From the NCBI GenBank assembly GCA_012518645.1, contig JAAYRS010000050.1, positions 1-44,134 of the forward strand: DNA of 44,134 bases. Reading direction: 5' to 3'. Shown here in pieces: positions 4,964 to 34,508 of this stretch. This DNA is from Bacillota bacterium (GTDB lineage: Bacteria > Bacillota > Limnochordia > Darwinibacteriales > Darwinibacteriaceae). The notes beneath the pieces were generated by a model. It saw nothing but the letters and a program-made list of their open reading frames with translations, was not told the origin of the DNA and did no database searches. A program made the position numbers and the translations under genes. Positions within the stretch are counted from its first letter, which is position 1, and each line of letters begins with the position of its first letter.

Positions 4964-6223
4964 TCAATTAATCAACTTAATTGCCTCTTCCAAAACTTCA
5001 AAAGCGTCAACTTGACTAATAACAATTTCTTGAACGGCACTCTCGAAAACATTGATAATGTCAAGGAATACTTCTGAAGAAGGTATTTTTTGGGCGTACG
5101 GCAATTGATTAACAGCAGTTTTGTAATTTGGCTTTTCACTATAAAAATCAGTCATTTCAGGTGTATCAAGTGCTGGCAAGCAAGTTGGCATATACCCCGT
5201 ACTTTGGGACCAAAACGCTTGTGTGTCGGCTTGAACAAAGTATTTGATTACCTCCCAAGCGGCATCTTTTTGCTCCTTAGTTAGATTTTCAGCCATGAAC
5301 AGGCTTCCCCCGCCGTTAGGTACAACAAATTCACTATCCTTAAATCGAGGTACAAAAGCCGTTTTTAGATTTAATTCTTCATCAAATCCTGCCAGAGAGC
5401 CAATTGACTGTATATACATGCTGATTTTCCCTTGGTTAAAATCTGCACGGGCTCGATCGCCAGCGCTAAACACCGTTCCTGCATAGACCCTCGCGGTGCG
5501 ACTTACATTTACCATATCCGAAATTAGATTTAATACCTCGGCAACTTCCGCAGATGCAAACATCGGTGTACCTGTTTCAGGATCAGCCAAATTACCACCA
5601 TTTGACCATATCATGGGTGTGAGTGTCCACCAATGTAAGTTGGGACTAAACCCATGTCTTATTATCCTGCCATCATCATCGACAATAGTTAACTTTTCGC
5701 TATACTCAATTAATTCCTCCCAGGTTTCTGGGGCCTCGGTTCCCAAACCAGCTTCTATAAAATGATCTACATTATAGTAAAGCACCGGGTTACTTCTGTT
5801 AAAGGGAATTGCCAAAAATTGATCTTTGTACCAGCTATCTACAAGTAATCCCGGTTGGAAATGTTCAAAACCGATCTCAGGATCATCTTCTAAATACCCG
5901 CTTAAATCCGCGAGAGCACCAGTCGGTCCGAAAACTCCCGTCCCCTCGATAGGAAGCTGAACTAACGCGGGAGGATTCTTTGCTGCAATTGAAGCCATAA
6001 ATTTCTGTTGTAAATCGTAGTAAGAACCTTGATAATGCACGTGGAGTTCTACATCGTTTTGACTTGCATTAAATTCCTCAGCAATTTTCTCCAATGTTGG
6101 CCCCGGAATACCACCCATTGCATGCCAAAGATCAATTTTGATTGGGGCTGCATTAACCGATTGTATTCCAAAACTTAGAACACACAATACTAACACACCA
6201 AATAACAGTTTTTTTGGTTTCAT
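4964..6223 (-). CDS. Extracellular solute-binding protein, UgpB-like
   Basis: HVHYQGSYYDLQQKFMASIAAKNPPALVQLPIEGTGVFGPTGALADLSGYL...FLAIPFNRSNPVLYYNVDHFIEAGL. Start moved to MKPKKLLF (signal peptide), preceded by AAAGGAGTG. Confidence 0.88.
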   Translation of the reverse strand: MKPKKLLFGVLVLCVLSFGIQSVNAAPIKIDLWHAMGGIPGPTLEKIAEEFNASQNDVELHVHYQGSYYDLQQKFMASIAAKNPPALVQLPIEGTGVFGPTGALADLSGYLEDDPEIGFEHFQPGLLVDSWYKDQFLAIPFNRSNPVLYYNVDHFIEAGLGTEAPETWEELIEYSEKLTIVDDDGRIIRHGFSPNLHWWTLTPMIWSNGGNLADPETGTPMFASAEVAEVLNLISDMVNVSRTARVYAGTVFSAGDRARADFNQGKISMYIQSIGSLAGFDEELNLKTAFVPRFKDSEFVVPNGGGSLFMAENLTKEQKDAAWEVIKYFVQADTQAFWSQSTGYMPTCLPALDTPEMTDFYSEKPNYKTAVNQLPYAQKIPSSEVFLDIINVFESAVQEIVISQVDAFEVLEEAIKLIN

Positions 6224-6368: not shown

Positions 6369-7712
6369 TCACTCTTTGAAAATCAGCATATCAGCATAGG
6401 TCTTCAAAAAATTTAAATCCCACAGCAGCTGCAAAATGGTGTAGCGAGCCCGAATTTCTTTAGCATATAATAAGGCTTCATAGACCAACGTTTGATCCAG
6501 TCCCACCTCTGATGGTGCAGTAAAGCCTCCTACATCCGCCAGAAGTTTAGCAATTTGCCCCGGATCCGGAACAGCGTTTAGTACCTCAACAATCTCTTCC
6601 CAACGTTCCGCAATAACTCTTATCCGTTGTTTATGCTGCTCAATATTGTTTTTCTGCGACTTTTGTTCCAAAAGAATTACTTCCTGGGCCCCATCCCTGT
6701 ACATTTCCTTGATTTCGTTTTCCCAATTATCTAGGGCCGGGGGATTTATGTTGGCTATTATACCTGGATCCAATTCCTCTTGCCGCAAATATTTATACAG
6801 TTCGGCAATTAGTACAGTCGCAATACCCACCTTTATTCCGTGTAGAATAGACGGCTTGTTTTCGAATTGAAATCTCACCTCCCAAAAATGGGATAAATGA
6901 TGCTCGCTGCCCGCAGATGGCCTGGAGCTGCCGGCATAACCCATAGCAATACCGGAAAGAACCAAGGCTTCCATTAATTCCGCAATGGCTTCCGGTTTCC
7001 CAACATCGATCCCTTTCCGCACAGCAATAGCTTTCTCTAGGCTGTGTTTTGCTAATTCCACAACCTTTGCACAATAATATTCGTTATTTATTATCCTTGA
7101 AAGCTGCCAATCCGCTAAACAAGTGTACTTGCCAATCAGGTCACTATAGCCTGCAATGATCATGTTCTTGGGCGCCGTTGCTAAAATATTTACATCCGCG
7201 ATGATCGCCTGGGGCATCTCGCAGTTAAACGTTGTCTTATAATTGGACTTAAGTAAAGCTGCCCCCTTGGAAGCCAAGCCGTCTGTAGAAGGAGCCGTGG
7301 CCACAATATAATAGGGGATCTTAAGCCGATAACTAACAAAGCGGCATAGATCTATAATTGTGCCCGTACCCACCGCTATTATCAAATCCGTATCGGGATG
7401 CATATTCATTAAAAGGCTTCCCGCTGCGCGCTCATCGGGGATTAATTCACCGTCTTGAAAAACGTGCGAAGAGTAACTTATATCTTTCTCAGAAAGAAGT
7501 GATAAGAGCTTTGAACCAGCTACTCTGTAAGTATTATGATCCGATACAACGAAAGGCCGCTTAAATTCATCTTTTCGAAGCATTGAACCTATTTTTTCCA
7601 AAGCACCTGCGGAGATTTCTACAGTGCCAAGTTTAACCTCATGAGTCCTGCCGCAATCGCAATGAAATGCTTGCCCTAAAACATCAGTTAATTCCATCTC
7701 GCTTATGTCCAT
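6369..7712 (-). CDS. sn-glycerol-1-phosphate dehydrogenase (AraM/EgsA family)
   Basis: AVGTGTIIDLCRFVSYRLKIPYYIVATAPSTDGLASKGAALL; DLIGKYTCLADWQLS; metal-ligand regions GSEHHLSHFWE and ILHGIKVGIATVL. Start moved to MDISEM. Confidence 0.88.
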   Translation of the reverse strand: MDISEMELTDVLGQAFHCDCGRTHEVKLGTVEISAGALEKIGSMLRKDEFKRPFVVSDHNTYRVAGSKLLSLLSEKDISYSSHVFQDGELIPDERAAGSLLMNMHPDTDLIIAVGTGTIIDLCRFVSYRLKIPYYIVATAPSTDGLASKGAALLKSNYKTTFNCEMPQAIIADVNILATAPKNMIIAGYSDLIGKYTCLADWQLSRIINNEYYCAKVVELAKHSLEKAIAVRKGIDVGKPEAIAELMEALVLSGIAMGYAGSSRPSAGSEHHLSHFWEVRFQFENKPSILHGIKVGIATVLIAELYKYLRQEELDPGIIANINPPALDNWENEIKEMYRDGAQEVILLEQKSQKNNIEQHKQRIRVIAERWEEIVEVLNAVPDPGQIAKLLADVGGFTAPSEVGLDQTLVYEALLYAKEIRARYTILQLLWDLNFLKTYADMLIFKE

Positions 7713-8393
7713 TTTCGTCCTCTTTTCTCCTTCGGCGCCGTATGTTATTACCACCTCTGGTTTTTATCCCAACTAGTTTTCTTTATCTTCATAAGACTAC
7801 CAATTCTAAGAGCATGTTGAAATCTTGTTTTAAACGGATTGTTTATGCCCCTTAGTGCCCATTTCGTCATAATCATGCACATAATAGCTTTATGCCTGCT
7901 TTTAAGATAATATTGATAGATTATCTACCAAACTCGTTTTTGGTATTTATAATTTGTCGTTCAATTTGATCATACCAGAAGGCCCTTTTCCGCATCATAT
8001 CCATTTTTATTTAGTGCCTTATCTACATATAGTTTGATTTCATTGTGTTAAACGTATTAAATACCTCTGCAGCGGAGTAGGGAGCAGTCCTTTATAATGG
8101 GCCATCTATATTACTAACCTTAACGGATACGCAACATTAGTATATATTTTGCTCTTGTATTTTACAAGGTGTTGTGCTAATCTTGAATAAAGAGCATGAT
8201 CCCGCAGCATTTTTGGCATATGTAAGCACAAACACGCATCCAAAAGAGCAAAAATATCTATTTCTTGGTAAAATCGAATTTCTGAAACGGTTTTTATCAA
8301 ACAGAAAATGTCTGTTTTTTTAAACTTTCATAAGGAAGAATCCGGAGTCCAATTGGGGTCAGCGCTTTCTTCGACTAAAAAGGGAGGATTTTC

Positions 8394-30719: not shown

Positions 30720-30796
30720 CCGGGGGGGGAATTCCTGTTGATTTTTAGGCCTGTTCAGTTATACTAAGGACGAATAAAAACTAAGGAGTTTGCAAG

Positions 30797-31390
30797 ATGA
30801 CCTGGGAACTAATGTCTTTCCCCTTCATCGCGGCTTTAATCGGTTGGGGAACCAATGTTATTGCCATCAAAATGCTTTTCTGGCCTCGGCAGCCCATCCG
30901 GATTTTTGGCTTCAGCCTCCGGGGCGTTCTGCCTAAACGCCAAAAGGAGATTGCCAGCAGTATTGGGCAAATAGTAAATGAGGATCTACTGCCCAGCGAT
31001 GATCTTCTAGAAGCGGTAAATACTAAGGAAAACCGTGAAAAAATAGTTGATTTGATCTGCGGGAATTTGGAAGACAAAGCCGGCCGCTTTCTACCTTTTT
31101 TCATTCCGGAAAACGCCAAAGAAAAAATTAAGGGGCACCTCCGCGGCATAGTTGGATCGGAAATAGAAACATTGTTTTCCCAGTTGAGCACAACTTTCAG
31201 CACCGAACTGGAAACCCGGAACTTGCTGGGTAATCTAGTAGAGGAAAAAGTCAATTCCTTTGATTTTTTCCAATTGGAAAACTTGATCTTAAAAGTAGCG
31301 AAAAAAGAACTCCGTCATATTGAATTCTTAGGTGCCGTCCTAGGCTTTTTTATCGGGATTATCCAGGTTTTGATCCTGATGATTTTTTAA
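30797..31390 (+). CDS. DUF445-family membrane protein
   Basis: FIAALIGWGTNVIAIKMLFWPRQPIRIFGFSLRGVLPKRQKEIASSIGQIV. Confidence 0.88.
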   Translation: MTWELMSFPFIAALIGWGTNVIAIKMLFWPRQPIRIFGFSLRGVLPKRQKEIASSIGQIVNEDLLPSDDLLEAVNTKENREKIVDLICGNLEDKAGRFLPFFIPENAKEKIKGHLRGIVGSEIETLFSQLSTTFSTELETRNLLGNLVEEKVNSFDFFQLENLILKVAKKELRHIEFLGAVLGFFIGIIQVLILMIF

Positions 31391-31420
31391 AAACCCCCAT
31401 GCGCCGGGGGTTTCTTTTTT
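31391..31420. terminator. Terminator between convergent genes
   Basis: AAACCCCC-atgcgcc-GGGGGTTT then CTTTTTTT. Confidence 0.85.
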
Positions 31421-32076
31421 TATTTCTTAATAAAAATTTGGGTAGTGTAATAGCTTGTCCCCCTTTGGAAAATACCAACCCCGATGTGAGTATAGCCGGA
31501 ATACATAATGTTGGCCCGATGGGCTGAACTGCCCATAAACAAAGGGTGAATCCGGGCAAAACTACCGGTCCTGGCTATGTTTTCACCGGCCAGGGCATAG
31601 CTGATCCCGGCCCTATTTAACATATTATAAACCGAACCCAAGTTGGGGGAAATATGATCGAAATAACCGGCAACAGCCATATCCCGGCTTTTTTCCTTGG
31701 CCAAGGCAACCAAGTTTAAATCTACTTGGAGGGTTTTCAAACCCCCGCTCACCCTTTCCCGGTTAACTTGGTTAATCAGGTTCTGTTCCTCGCTGGTCAA
31801 GGATGAAACCGGCGGGGGCGTTATCTCTTTCGGCGGTCTGCCCGGCTGCACCGGCAGAAGCGGGCTGCCCGGATTGCTCGGGGTCGCGGGAGGTGTCGGC
31901 TGAGGGCGCTGGGAAGGAAAACTGGGCTTAAAATCAATTTGGGGCCAAAGACTTGTGTTCCAGGTAGGCTTGGGAAGAATGGGGGCACTGGAAGCCCACC
32001 AATCCCAGGAACTGGCAGATACAGCGGATACTGCAGTAAGTAGGATCAATAGAATCAGGACAAGGGATCTTTTCAC
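31420..32076 (-). CDS. Secreted CAP-domain (SCP/PR1, YkwD-like) protein
   Basis: NLINQVNRERVSGGLKTLQVDLNLVALAKEKSRDMAVAGYFDHISPNLGSVYNMLNRAGISYALAGENIA; Pro-rich linker. Confidence 0.9.
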   Translation of the reverse strand: MKRSLVLILLILLTAVSAVSASSWDWWASSAPILPKPTWNTSLWPQIDFKPSFPSQRPQPTPPATPSNPGSPLLPVQPGRPPKEITPPPVSSLTSEEQNLINQVNRERVSGGLKTLQVDLNLVALAKEKSRDMAVAGYFDHISPNLGSVYNMLNRAGISYALAGENIARTGSFARIHPLFMGSSAHRANIMYSGYTHIGVGIFQRGTSYYTTQIFIKK

Positions 32077-32153: not shown

Positions 32154-32456
32154 TTATCCCCCGCCCCCTCCCAACATGTTTTGCAGTTTTTCTTGAATCA
32201 ACTCCAAAGACAATTCTCCGCGGCAGCAGATCTGCCCGGCAATGATCACCAAGGGTAAATTCTTTTCCCGATGCCGGGGGCTAACCCTTCCTTGAAAACT
32301 ATCGGCATCAAAGAACCGAACCTGCACAGCGGAACCCCAATGCCGGCGGATAGCTCTTTGCAGATAAATAAGGGCCTCTTCCAGAGGGATTTGCTTCCTT
32401 CAACCTCCGCAAAAACGAATTGGGGTGCTGCGCTTAGCGTAAACGATTATTTCCAT
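32154..32456 (-). CDS. Candidate selenoprotein: 100-aa thioredoxin-fold-like protein with CxxU motif (in-frame TGA at 32400-32402)
   Basis: MEIIVYAKRSTPIRFCGG[U]RKQIPLEEALIYLQRAIRRHWGSAVQVRFFDADSFQGRVSPRHREKNLPLVIIAGQICCRGELSLELIQEKLQNMLGGGGG*. SD GAGGTGG just upstream. Frame open except for one TGA. Confidence 0.6.
32366..32392 (-). promoter_or_regulatory. Candidate bacterial SECIS hairpin
   Basis: Downstream of the UGA: CCUCU-GGA-AGAGG (32375-32387), apical loop starting 18 nt after UGA with G first; possible lower stem AAAU/AUUU (32389-32392 with 32366-32369). Confidence 0.5.
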
Positions 32457-32483
32457 TAAACCCACCTCAGGCCATTCTATGCC

Positions 32484-33758
32484 TTAATCTTTGGGAATGA
32501 CCCTGCGCCAAATGCTGGCCGTCCGGCTTTCCGGCCGGGTTTCGATTTCCTGTAAGCGCCTCTCTAACTGGGTTACCCGGCTTTTCAGCTTCTCGGTTTC
32601 TTCCTTCCAACTAATCTTTTCCCGTTCCAGTTTTCTTTCGTTGACTGCCAAGCGGCTTTCCAACCGCTCCAGCCGGTTTCTCCAAGGCGTTAAATCCGGA
32701 GCCGGAGGTATTTTTGGGAGAACAATGCTCTTTTGCCAGCTGCCAATTTCCGCCTTGAATTGCGCCCATTCTTCAAAGAGGGAGGCCATTCCCCGCTCTA
32801 GATCGGATTTCGGCTGCACTTCCGGTTCTTCTTCCTCAGCAGGCACCGCTTCAGTTTCAGCCGGGCCCGGATCTGTTTTTTTCGCTTTCTTCAGCTCCCA
32901 GCCCGCTAAAAGAAAGGAACCCCAACCGGGCATTGCCGCCGCCCGCTCTTGGAAATGATAATCCTCTAAAGGCAAAAGCTGAGGCCCGCTTTGTGAATCT
33001 ATGTTCAGGTAATAAAGGTTTCCCGCTTCTAACCAAAAAACGCCGCATTCCTCTTGGCAGGTATAACCAATCCGGGAAGCCCGGCCGGCTTGGGAAGAGA
33101 GAGCTTGGCCCGAGGACCAGGTGTTGTTTTTTGCTTTGAAATTAAGCACCGCCGATTCTTCCTTCCCTTCCAGCCAAAACAAACGGAGTTGAGGGCCGGG
33201 GATCAGCTGGGGATGGCGGCAGTCCCCGGCTCTTAAGACCACGGTTCCGCTCCAAATACGCTTATTTAAATCAAAAGCGCGATAGAGCAAATGCCCAGCC
33301 TGCTGCTGACAGTATACTAGGTAGAGATAATCCTCGTTTCCCAGGACACTAAAATCAAGCCGGCTGTTGGCCGCTGCCAAAAAGGGGGGTGACCAGCGCC
33401 CATCATAAATTTGGTGGCGCAGGGCGGGCCCGGAGCCCGAAGCCTGTTTTGCAAAGTAAAATAAATGTGCCTGCCCCTGCGCATCGGCAATTAACCGTCC
33501 GCCCCCATGATAAATAGAGCTTAATTCCAGCTGCTCGCGGAACAATGGTTTTTGACCTCGGTAGTGCCAGGCCCAATTTGATTTTTGAAAAGCAACTATA
33601 TGTAGCTGATTGGAAACCGCGGTGAGGGCAAAATCCTGGATTTGAGCCCCTAATTCTTTGCCGGCACCTTCGGGCCCGTACAGTTTCAACTTTCCGGCCG
33701 TCAATTCCGCGGCCTCGTATTCCGGGTGAGAAATTTTAATCAACATTATCACACCCAC
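32484..33758 (-). CDS. Hypothetical protein: beta-propeller-like N-terminus and C-terminal coiled coil
   Basis: Repeated beta-rich units (IVAFQKSNWAWHYRG, AHLFYFAKQ, LYLVYCQQQ, LRLFWLEGK, CGVFWLEAG), then a long Glu/Lys/Arg/Leu heptad region. Confidence 0.65.
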   Translation of the reverse strand: MGVIMLIKISHPEYEAAELTAGKLKLYGPEGAGKELGAQIQDFALTAVSNQLHIVAFQKSNWAWHYRGQKPLFREQLELSSIYHGGGRLIADAQGQAHLFYFAKQASGSGPALRHQIYDGRWSPPFLAAANSRLDFSVLGNEDYLYLVYCQQQAGHLLYRAFDLNKRIWSGTVVLRAGDCRHPQLIPGPQLRLFWLEGKEESAVLNFKAKNNTWSSGQALSSQAGRASRIGYTCQEECGVFWLEAGNLYYLNIDSQSGPQLLPLEDYHFQERAAAMPGWGSFLLAGWELKKAKKTDPGPAETEAVPAEEEEPEVQPKSDLERGMASLFEEWAQFKAEIGSWQKSIVLPKIPPAPDLTPWRNRLERLESRLAVNERKLEREKISWKEETEKLKSRVTQLERRLQEIETRPESRTASIWRRVIPKD

Positions 33759-33869: not shown

Positions 33870-34508
33870 ATGTCTCACTGTACAGATCACGACGGCGGTT
33901 TCCAAAGAGAGTGTATTTACGTAACTAAAGTCTATAACGAGTGCAAGATCATCGAGTGCCCCACTTACAATATCCCTATCCCCCCCACCTGTCCCCCGGT
34001 TGTAAATGTGGTGGATTGCGCTTTGTCCGAAATTGACACGGAGGGGTTCGTTACCAGTTCCGGTGAAATAAGCCTTACTGTTAACTTTGTCCTGAACGTG
34101 GAATATGACGGCAACGGTACTCCCCAATTTATTGAACAGACTGCTCAATTCCGCCGCAACGGGCTGCGTTTAGAAGGTGTCGTTCCCGCCATGGATGTAA
34201 TCATCCTGCCCTTGCTGACTTGCGTCGGCTGCAGACCGGGTGAAAACGGGTCCAGCATCGAATGCGATGTAGGTGTCTATTTGGTGGTAAAAGCCGTAGC
34301 TTTAGTCCAGATGGAAGTCATGGGCAGATTTTGTCCGGAACCGCCGCTTTGCGAAGAGGTTTCACCTTTGGGCTGCACCGAATGGCTGGCTTTGGCCGAA
34401 TCAGGAGCCTTCTGGCCGCCATTCCCGCCCCAGCCGCCCAGGAGGGCGCCCCAGGATCCCCGGCCGCGGCCGCCGGTCTACCCAAAAAGGCCGCTTAGGG
34501 CCGATTAA
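33870..34508 (+). CDS. Cys-rich spore-coat-like protein with Pro-rich tail
   Basis: MSHCTDHDGGFQRECIYVTKVYNECKIIECP...CPPVVNVVDC...; tail PPFPPQPPRRAPQDPRPRPPVYPKRP. SD AAAGGAGG. Confidence 0.6.
   Translation: MSHCTDHDGGFQRECIYVTKVYNECKIIECPTYNIPIPPTCPPVVNVVDCALSEIDTEGFVTSSGEISLTVNFVLNVEYDGNGTPQFIEQTAQFRRNGLRLEGVVPAMDVIILPLLTCVGCRPGENGSSIECDVGVYLVVKAVALVQMEVMGRFCPEPPLCEEVSPLGCTEWLALAESGAFWPPFPPQPPRRAPQDPRPRPPVYPKRPLRAD

Follow-up and report, generated by a model that had tools for sequence, protein, structure and literature searches.

Is a small minus-strand gene that seems to be broken by a stop codon a relic, or is it intact, with the stop codon encoding selenocysteine (Sec), a rare amino acid? 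The question is raised by a locus in a 44,134-nucleotide stretch of a Bacillota contig (JAAYRS010000050.1), referred to here in its full length as the window. From the genome comparisons reported below, the gene is very probably intact and its TGA very probably encodes Sec. In this paper we describe the reading frame, its homologues, the Sec machinery, the hairpin downstream of the TGA and the predicted fold and neighbourhood of the product.

Methods

The genome to which the window belongs (G000) is 2.06 Mb in size and 93% complete. Because the tRNA-Sec model scored 40-52 bits in nearly all genomes, and the one such case that was checked was a tRNA-Leu, the line for the presence of tRNA-Sec was set at 60 bits. 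When GTDB and viral contigs were searched with the window protein alone, no matches were obtained, probably because the patterns came from the divergent window copy; an alignment of close relatives carrying X at the Sec position was successful.

Hairpins were compared with the published bSECIS model, in which the loop lies 16-37 nt after the UGA, G is found in the first two loop positions and the stem has 4-16 bp. The published energy threshold is -7.5 kcal/mol or lower, and is a prediction filter, not a selenoprotein-defining property. Minimum-free-energy z-scores after codon shuffling were uninformative for the closest relatives, and synonymous recoding was therefore adopted.

Results

The first-pass annotation had described a minus-strand frame interrupted only by a TGA at codon 19 and provided with an ATG and the Shine-Dalgarno sequence GAGGTGG, all of which can be read directly in the sequence (Table 1). 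Translation from the ATG at 32456 to a TAA terminator gives the product MEIIVYAKRSTPIRFCGGURKQIPLEEALIYLQRAIRRHWGSAVQVRFFDADSFQGRVSPRHREKNLPLVIIAGQICCRGELSLELIQEKLQNMLGGGGG*. Between the two flanking genes there is no open reading frame of 80 or more amino acids.

Table 1. Features of the candidate selenoprotein locus (positions in the window)
Feature	Position	Strand	Basis or remarks
Candidate selenoprotein CDS	32154..32456	-	100 codons + TAA; one TGA; homologues in other genomes
In-frame TGA, proposed Sec codon 19	32400..32402	-	Column 19 Sec/Cys in 27/27 aligned homologues
CGGU (CxxU) motif, codons 16-19	32400..32411	-	Sequence and homologue alignment
Ribosome-binding site GAGGTGG	32462..32468	-	Read directly from sequence
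bSECIS-type hairpin CCUCU-GGA-AGAGG	32375..32387	-	Covaries; more conserved than coding requires; lost in Cys homologues
Upstream gene, 424 aa, C-terminal coiled coil	32484..33758	-	Same strand as selenoprotein gene; no confident Pfam family
Downstream CAP-domain protein, YkwD-like	31420..32076	-	PF00188 44.4 bits; TIGR02909 below cut-off
Cys-rich protein, 212 aa, 12 Cys	33870..34508	+	Conserved; divergent from operon; no Pfam match

Homologues were matched in 26 of the 61 related genomes searched (25 besides the window's own). Bacillota MAGs such as JAKOTU010000068, UBA3914, UBA4996 and UBA5493 are among the named records with the gene, and the overlooked gene is present in dozens of related anaerobic bacteria. 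Within the same family the gene occurs in 20 of 23 genomes, each copy having a single in-frame TGA, located in the CGGU motif, a recurrence well outside what chance would give, and the three genomes without it (G003, G004, G011) are also without tRNA-Sec and SelB. The first-pass annotation had taken Cys or Sec in homologues aligned across the TGA as the mark of a selenoprotein, and every one of the 27 aligned homologues has one or the other at column 19. Other stops or frameshifts at the site, which it held to speak against one, were looked for in relatives and none was found. Among six close relatives dN/dS stays well below 1 on either side of the TGA (downstream, dN of ~0.1-0.2 vs dS of mostly ~0.9-1.7), and by this measure selection is purifying on both flanks. 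An extra TAA reported in L021 is that gene's own terminator, and the partial match G015:C1 (L042) is due to chance.

Machinery for Sec insertion is present in G000, where selA, selB, selD and tRNA-Sec were all found. The tRNA-Sec (72.5 bits; anticodon TCA by ARAGORN) directly adjoins selB (319 bits), selD scores 384 bits, and a 455-aa ORF adjacent to selB was recognised by eye as SelA.

Cys forms of the gene occur in two other families of the same order, in G034 (YGGC) and G025 (CQGC). Both lie between the same neighbours as the window gene (IMP dehydrogenase, a DarA-like gene, the Cys-rich gene, the coiled-coil gene and the CAP gene) and are thus positional orthologues. Neither genome has a tRNA-Sec or SelB above the true-positive range; in G035, which shares its family with G034, CGGU occurs together with tRNA-Sec and SelB. 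Class-wide, 27 of 28 genomes with the Sec form have a tRNA-Sec above 60 bits or SelB over the cut-off, the exception being G022, an assembly 88% complete in which neither was detected, and tRNA-Sec and SelB are found in none of the four Cys-only genomes (G025, G034, G049, G069). When column 19 is masked, the protein tree requires at least four Sec/Cys changes; hairpin presence tracks Sec in nearly every pairing on the tree, the four pairs being too few for sign-test significance.

Both forms are also seen in a single genus, in which L087 (G051) has CYGU and a complete hairpin and L088 (G069) has CYGC and a decayed hairpin; as read from the two genes, this is a natural Sec-to-Cys exchange. At L089, two Cys-form paralogues lie about 2 kb apart (matches 5187-5480 and 7584-7856) in G049, a genome without tRNA-Sec or SelB.

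The stem of the candidate hairpin begins 12 nt, and its loop 17 nt, after the UGA. The apical loop has three bases, GG(G/A), and the stem is 5 bp long in the window copy, as against 5-8 bp in relatives, so that the window hairpin (17 nt, GGA loop, 5 bp) has the published bSECIS geometry. At -4.7 kcal/mol it falls short of the published energy threshold and is weaker than any other in its family, and longer stretches have a different minimum-energy fold; the 42-nt folds of five relatives have energies of -9 to -12 kcal/mol. In the 20 same-family genes, 118 of 120 inner pairs are formed, vs 71.3 +/- 3.9 under synonymous recoding (maximum 85; 118 reached in 0 of 1000), and in 24 further, more distant Sec genes 132 of 144 are formed, vs 77.0 +/- 4.7 by recoding; these nulls treat the sequences as independent, though relatives are not, and covariation across distant subfamilies is therefore the stronger point. 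The covariation score is 0.435, compared with 0.199 after shuffling and no more than 0.21 after sliding; double-sided pair changes number 35 vs 11.7 shuffled, and the exchanges seen in the stem across these subfamilies are GC/AU, CG/UA/AU and CG/UA. Cys homologues form only 1-3 of six pairs in register. Conservation and covariation together argue that the RNA hairpin is under selection.

A thioredoxin fold, with a likeness to DUF1462/YuzD, had been suggested for the product from its layout, and at the profile level the suggestion holds: a profile search returned 1xg8 (DUF1462) first, with an E of 2.6e-5, and the top Foldseek matches were thioredoxins and 1xg8 (TM 0.63 on query), all with E above 0.001. 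DUF1462 is assigned to the thioredoxin clan (PMC3091736). An AlphaFold2 model of medium confidence (pLDDT 75.6) has the elements E2-7, H25-43, E45-50, H51-54, E69-72, E75-79 and H84-95, that is, the order beta-alpha-beta-alpha-beta-beta-alpha with the redox motif after strand 1, and from this model the window protein is predicted to have a thioredoxin fold. Matches to TATA-binding protein and to PDB 6zxw were rejected as chance.

PF07315 is matched by 22 of 27 members at E of 1 or less (best 3.6e-9). Against its gathering cut-off of 25 bits the Cys orthologue L036 passes with 37.2, L020 reaches 15.7 and the window protein has no match, and the latter is therefore termed a distant relative of DUF1462, not a member. 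Like DUF1462/YuzD (PF07315; PDB 1xg8, S. aureus SA0798), it is a small single-domain protein of predicted thioredoxin fold with a CxxC-type loop after strand 1 and a PLV strand near the end; unlike them, it has Sec replacing the second Cys, and neither it nor any CGGU member tested reaches the cut-off, the scores being lower or absent. NF041239 (Moorella type), the CC/Se motif family whose description comes closest, is likewise a small (~91 positions) Bacillota CxxU selenoprotein, but its model matches other loci in some genomes and none in the window's genome, and no aligned member matches it at the NCBIfam cut-off of 40 bits. Selenoprotein W-like proteins (PF10262) and other CxxU thioredoxin-fold selenoproteins share the CxxU after the first strand and the thioredoxin-type fold, whereas no Pfam match to PF10262 was obtained.

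The upstream coiled-coil gene adjoins the selenoprotein gene in 11 of 11 close loci, as well as at the Cys orthologues L093 and L094, and is a probable operon partner. The divergently encoded Cys-rich protein looks like a spore-coat-type protein; it is found at 61-68% identity beside the gene in close relatives, and near the gene in distant subfamilies. At distant loci one neighbour was judged by eye to be a SleB-like cortex-lytic enzyme. The conservation of CAP/YkwD, Cys-rich and, at distant loci, SleB-like neighbours suggests by association a spore or envelope setting, and our guess is that the selenoprotein has a role tied to these spore- or envelope-type genes. Elsewhere in the window, the DUF445 protein at 30797-31390 (+) is a real gene, and the minus-strand ORF overlapping it (30781-31254) is probably spurious.

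Discussion

The reading that best accommodates these results is a new family of Sec-containing thiol/selenol oxidoreductases. We consider it very likely that the window gene encodes a small cytosolic thioredoxin-fold selenoprotein whose UGA is read by SelB with the guidance of the hairpin and whose Sec19 is reactive in redox chemistry. What the sequences themselves show is the reading frame, the Sec machinery, the conservation across genomes, the Cys orthologues and the hairpin; from these we infer Sec insertion at the UGA, and redox chemistry would be its use. SelB and Sec-tRNA(Sec) would decode the UGA as Sec, the short hairpin directly downstream guiding SelB. The reactive group would be Sec19, placed in the CGGU loop that follows the first beta strand, and a Sec19-Cys16 selenenylsulfide would form during reduction or exchange of a partner's disulfide or other oxidised group.

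The first-pass annotation had placed Sec where the resolving Cys of a CxxC motif would sit. The CxxU motif stands; the resolving role is the less likely one. Position 19 is invariant as Sec or Cys, and Cys16 is replaced by Tyr in L035 (YGGC) and shifted upstream in the SGGUG subfamilies; Sec19 is for this reason more likely the attacking or essential group. Judged from the alignment, the reactive group is probably Sec19, usually partnered by Cys16.

The Sec protein might instead act as a metalloid or metal chaperone binding As(III), Hg or similar, like the thioredoxin-fold ArsD, and we retain this reading as a rival because the wider family gives weak ArsD matches. ArsD (PF06953/NF033727) has the thioredoxin fold and a Cys near the same loop; L101 matches NF033727 at 2e-5 and PF06953 at 3.3e-5, alignment A1 matches NF033727 at 0.0053, and Foldseek also returned the ArsD structures 3ktb and 3mwh. 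Every such match is below the cut-off, however, the window protein itself has none, and no ars genes were seen around the window gene, nor any arsenic or mercury genes among its named neighbours, which makes a chaperone unlikely.

The in-frame TGA taken by itself could be read in another way, as Trp or Gly by a code change or by leaky readthrough with a near-cognate residue. TGA is the normal terminator of 8 of the 35 genes called in the window, which excludes a genetic-code change; the alternative to TGA at this site in homologues is Cys, and in no case Trp, Gly or Arg, and the genome has Sec machinery, so that such a reading is very improbable. That the TGA is a true stop in a pseudogene without a full-length product, as the interrupted frame and the weak window hairpin might suggest, is a negligible prospect, largely refuted by genome comparisons in which the identical TGA is kept in 20 same-family genomes, the sequence on either side of it is under purifying selection, further stops are absent, Sec and Cys replace each other at column 19 and the hairpin is under selection.

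Beside the selenoprotein thus favoured for the window, other DUF1462-like Bacillota subfamilies have one TGA in CYGU, CHGU, ECYTU or SGGUG motifs and the same type of downstream hairpin (L038, L039, L083-L087, L096, L099, L101, L102, L104, L106, L109, L111, L113, L118, L119, L123, L124). Two Sec candidates, L103 (DCGUGCSSGDAGC) and L117 (SGGUG), are without the hairpin seen in the others; they could rely on a different SECIS type or could be false candidates. Of the NCBIfam selenoprotein models of June 2026, none scored over its cut-off for any member tested (best sub-threshold, NF047660), including ten representatives of these subfamilies. DUF1462, YuzD and PF07315 have no entry in the 2026 catalogue of 119 prokaryotic selenoprotein families (PMC13188914). 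No DUF1462/YuzD selenoprotein was found in the literature covered, which included few subscription papers, and an earlier mention is possible. In that literature DUF1462 is named in a single paper, which deals with the assignment of folds, and the occurrences of YuzD proved to be spelling noise. We offer only tentatively, as something we rather doubt, a large unreported DUF1462-like selenoprotein superfamily across Bacillota (CGGU, CYGU, CHGU, ECYTU and SGGUG) with a shared compact SECIS and, in this class, a sporulation/envelope neighbourhood, on which reading the gene would be a candidate for a redox step of sporulation that depends on selenium.

If the selenoprotein reading is true, the known selenoproteins gain a family with several subfamilies that neither the newest catalogue nor the NCBI annotation models contain, and annotation of these genomes will therefore call a stop or miss the gene. 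The family would also supply clean natural Sec/Cys orthologue pairs, one from a single genus, and in these the hairpin is lost where Sec is lost, so that SECIS evolution becomes directly testable.
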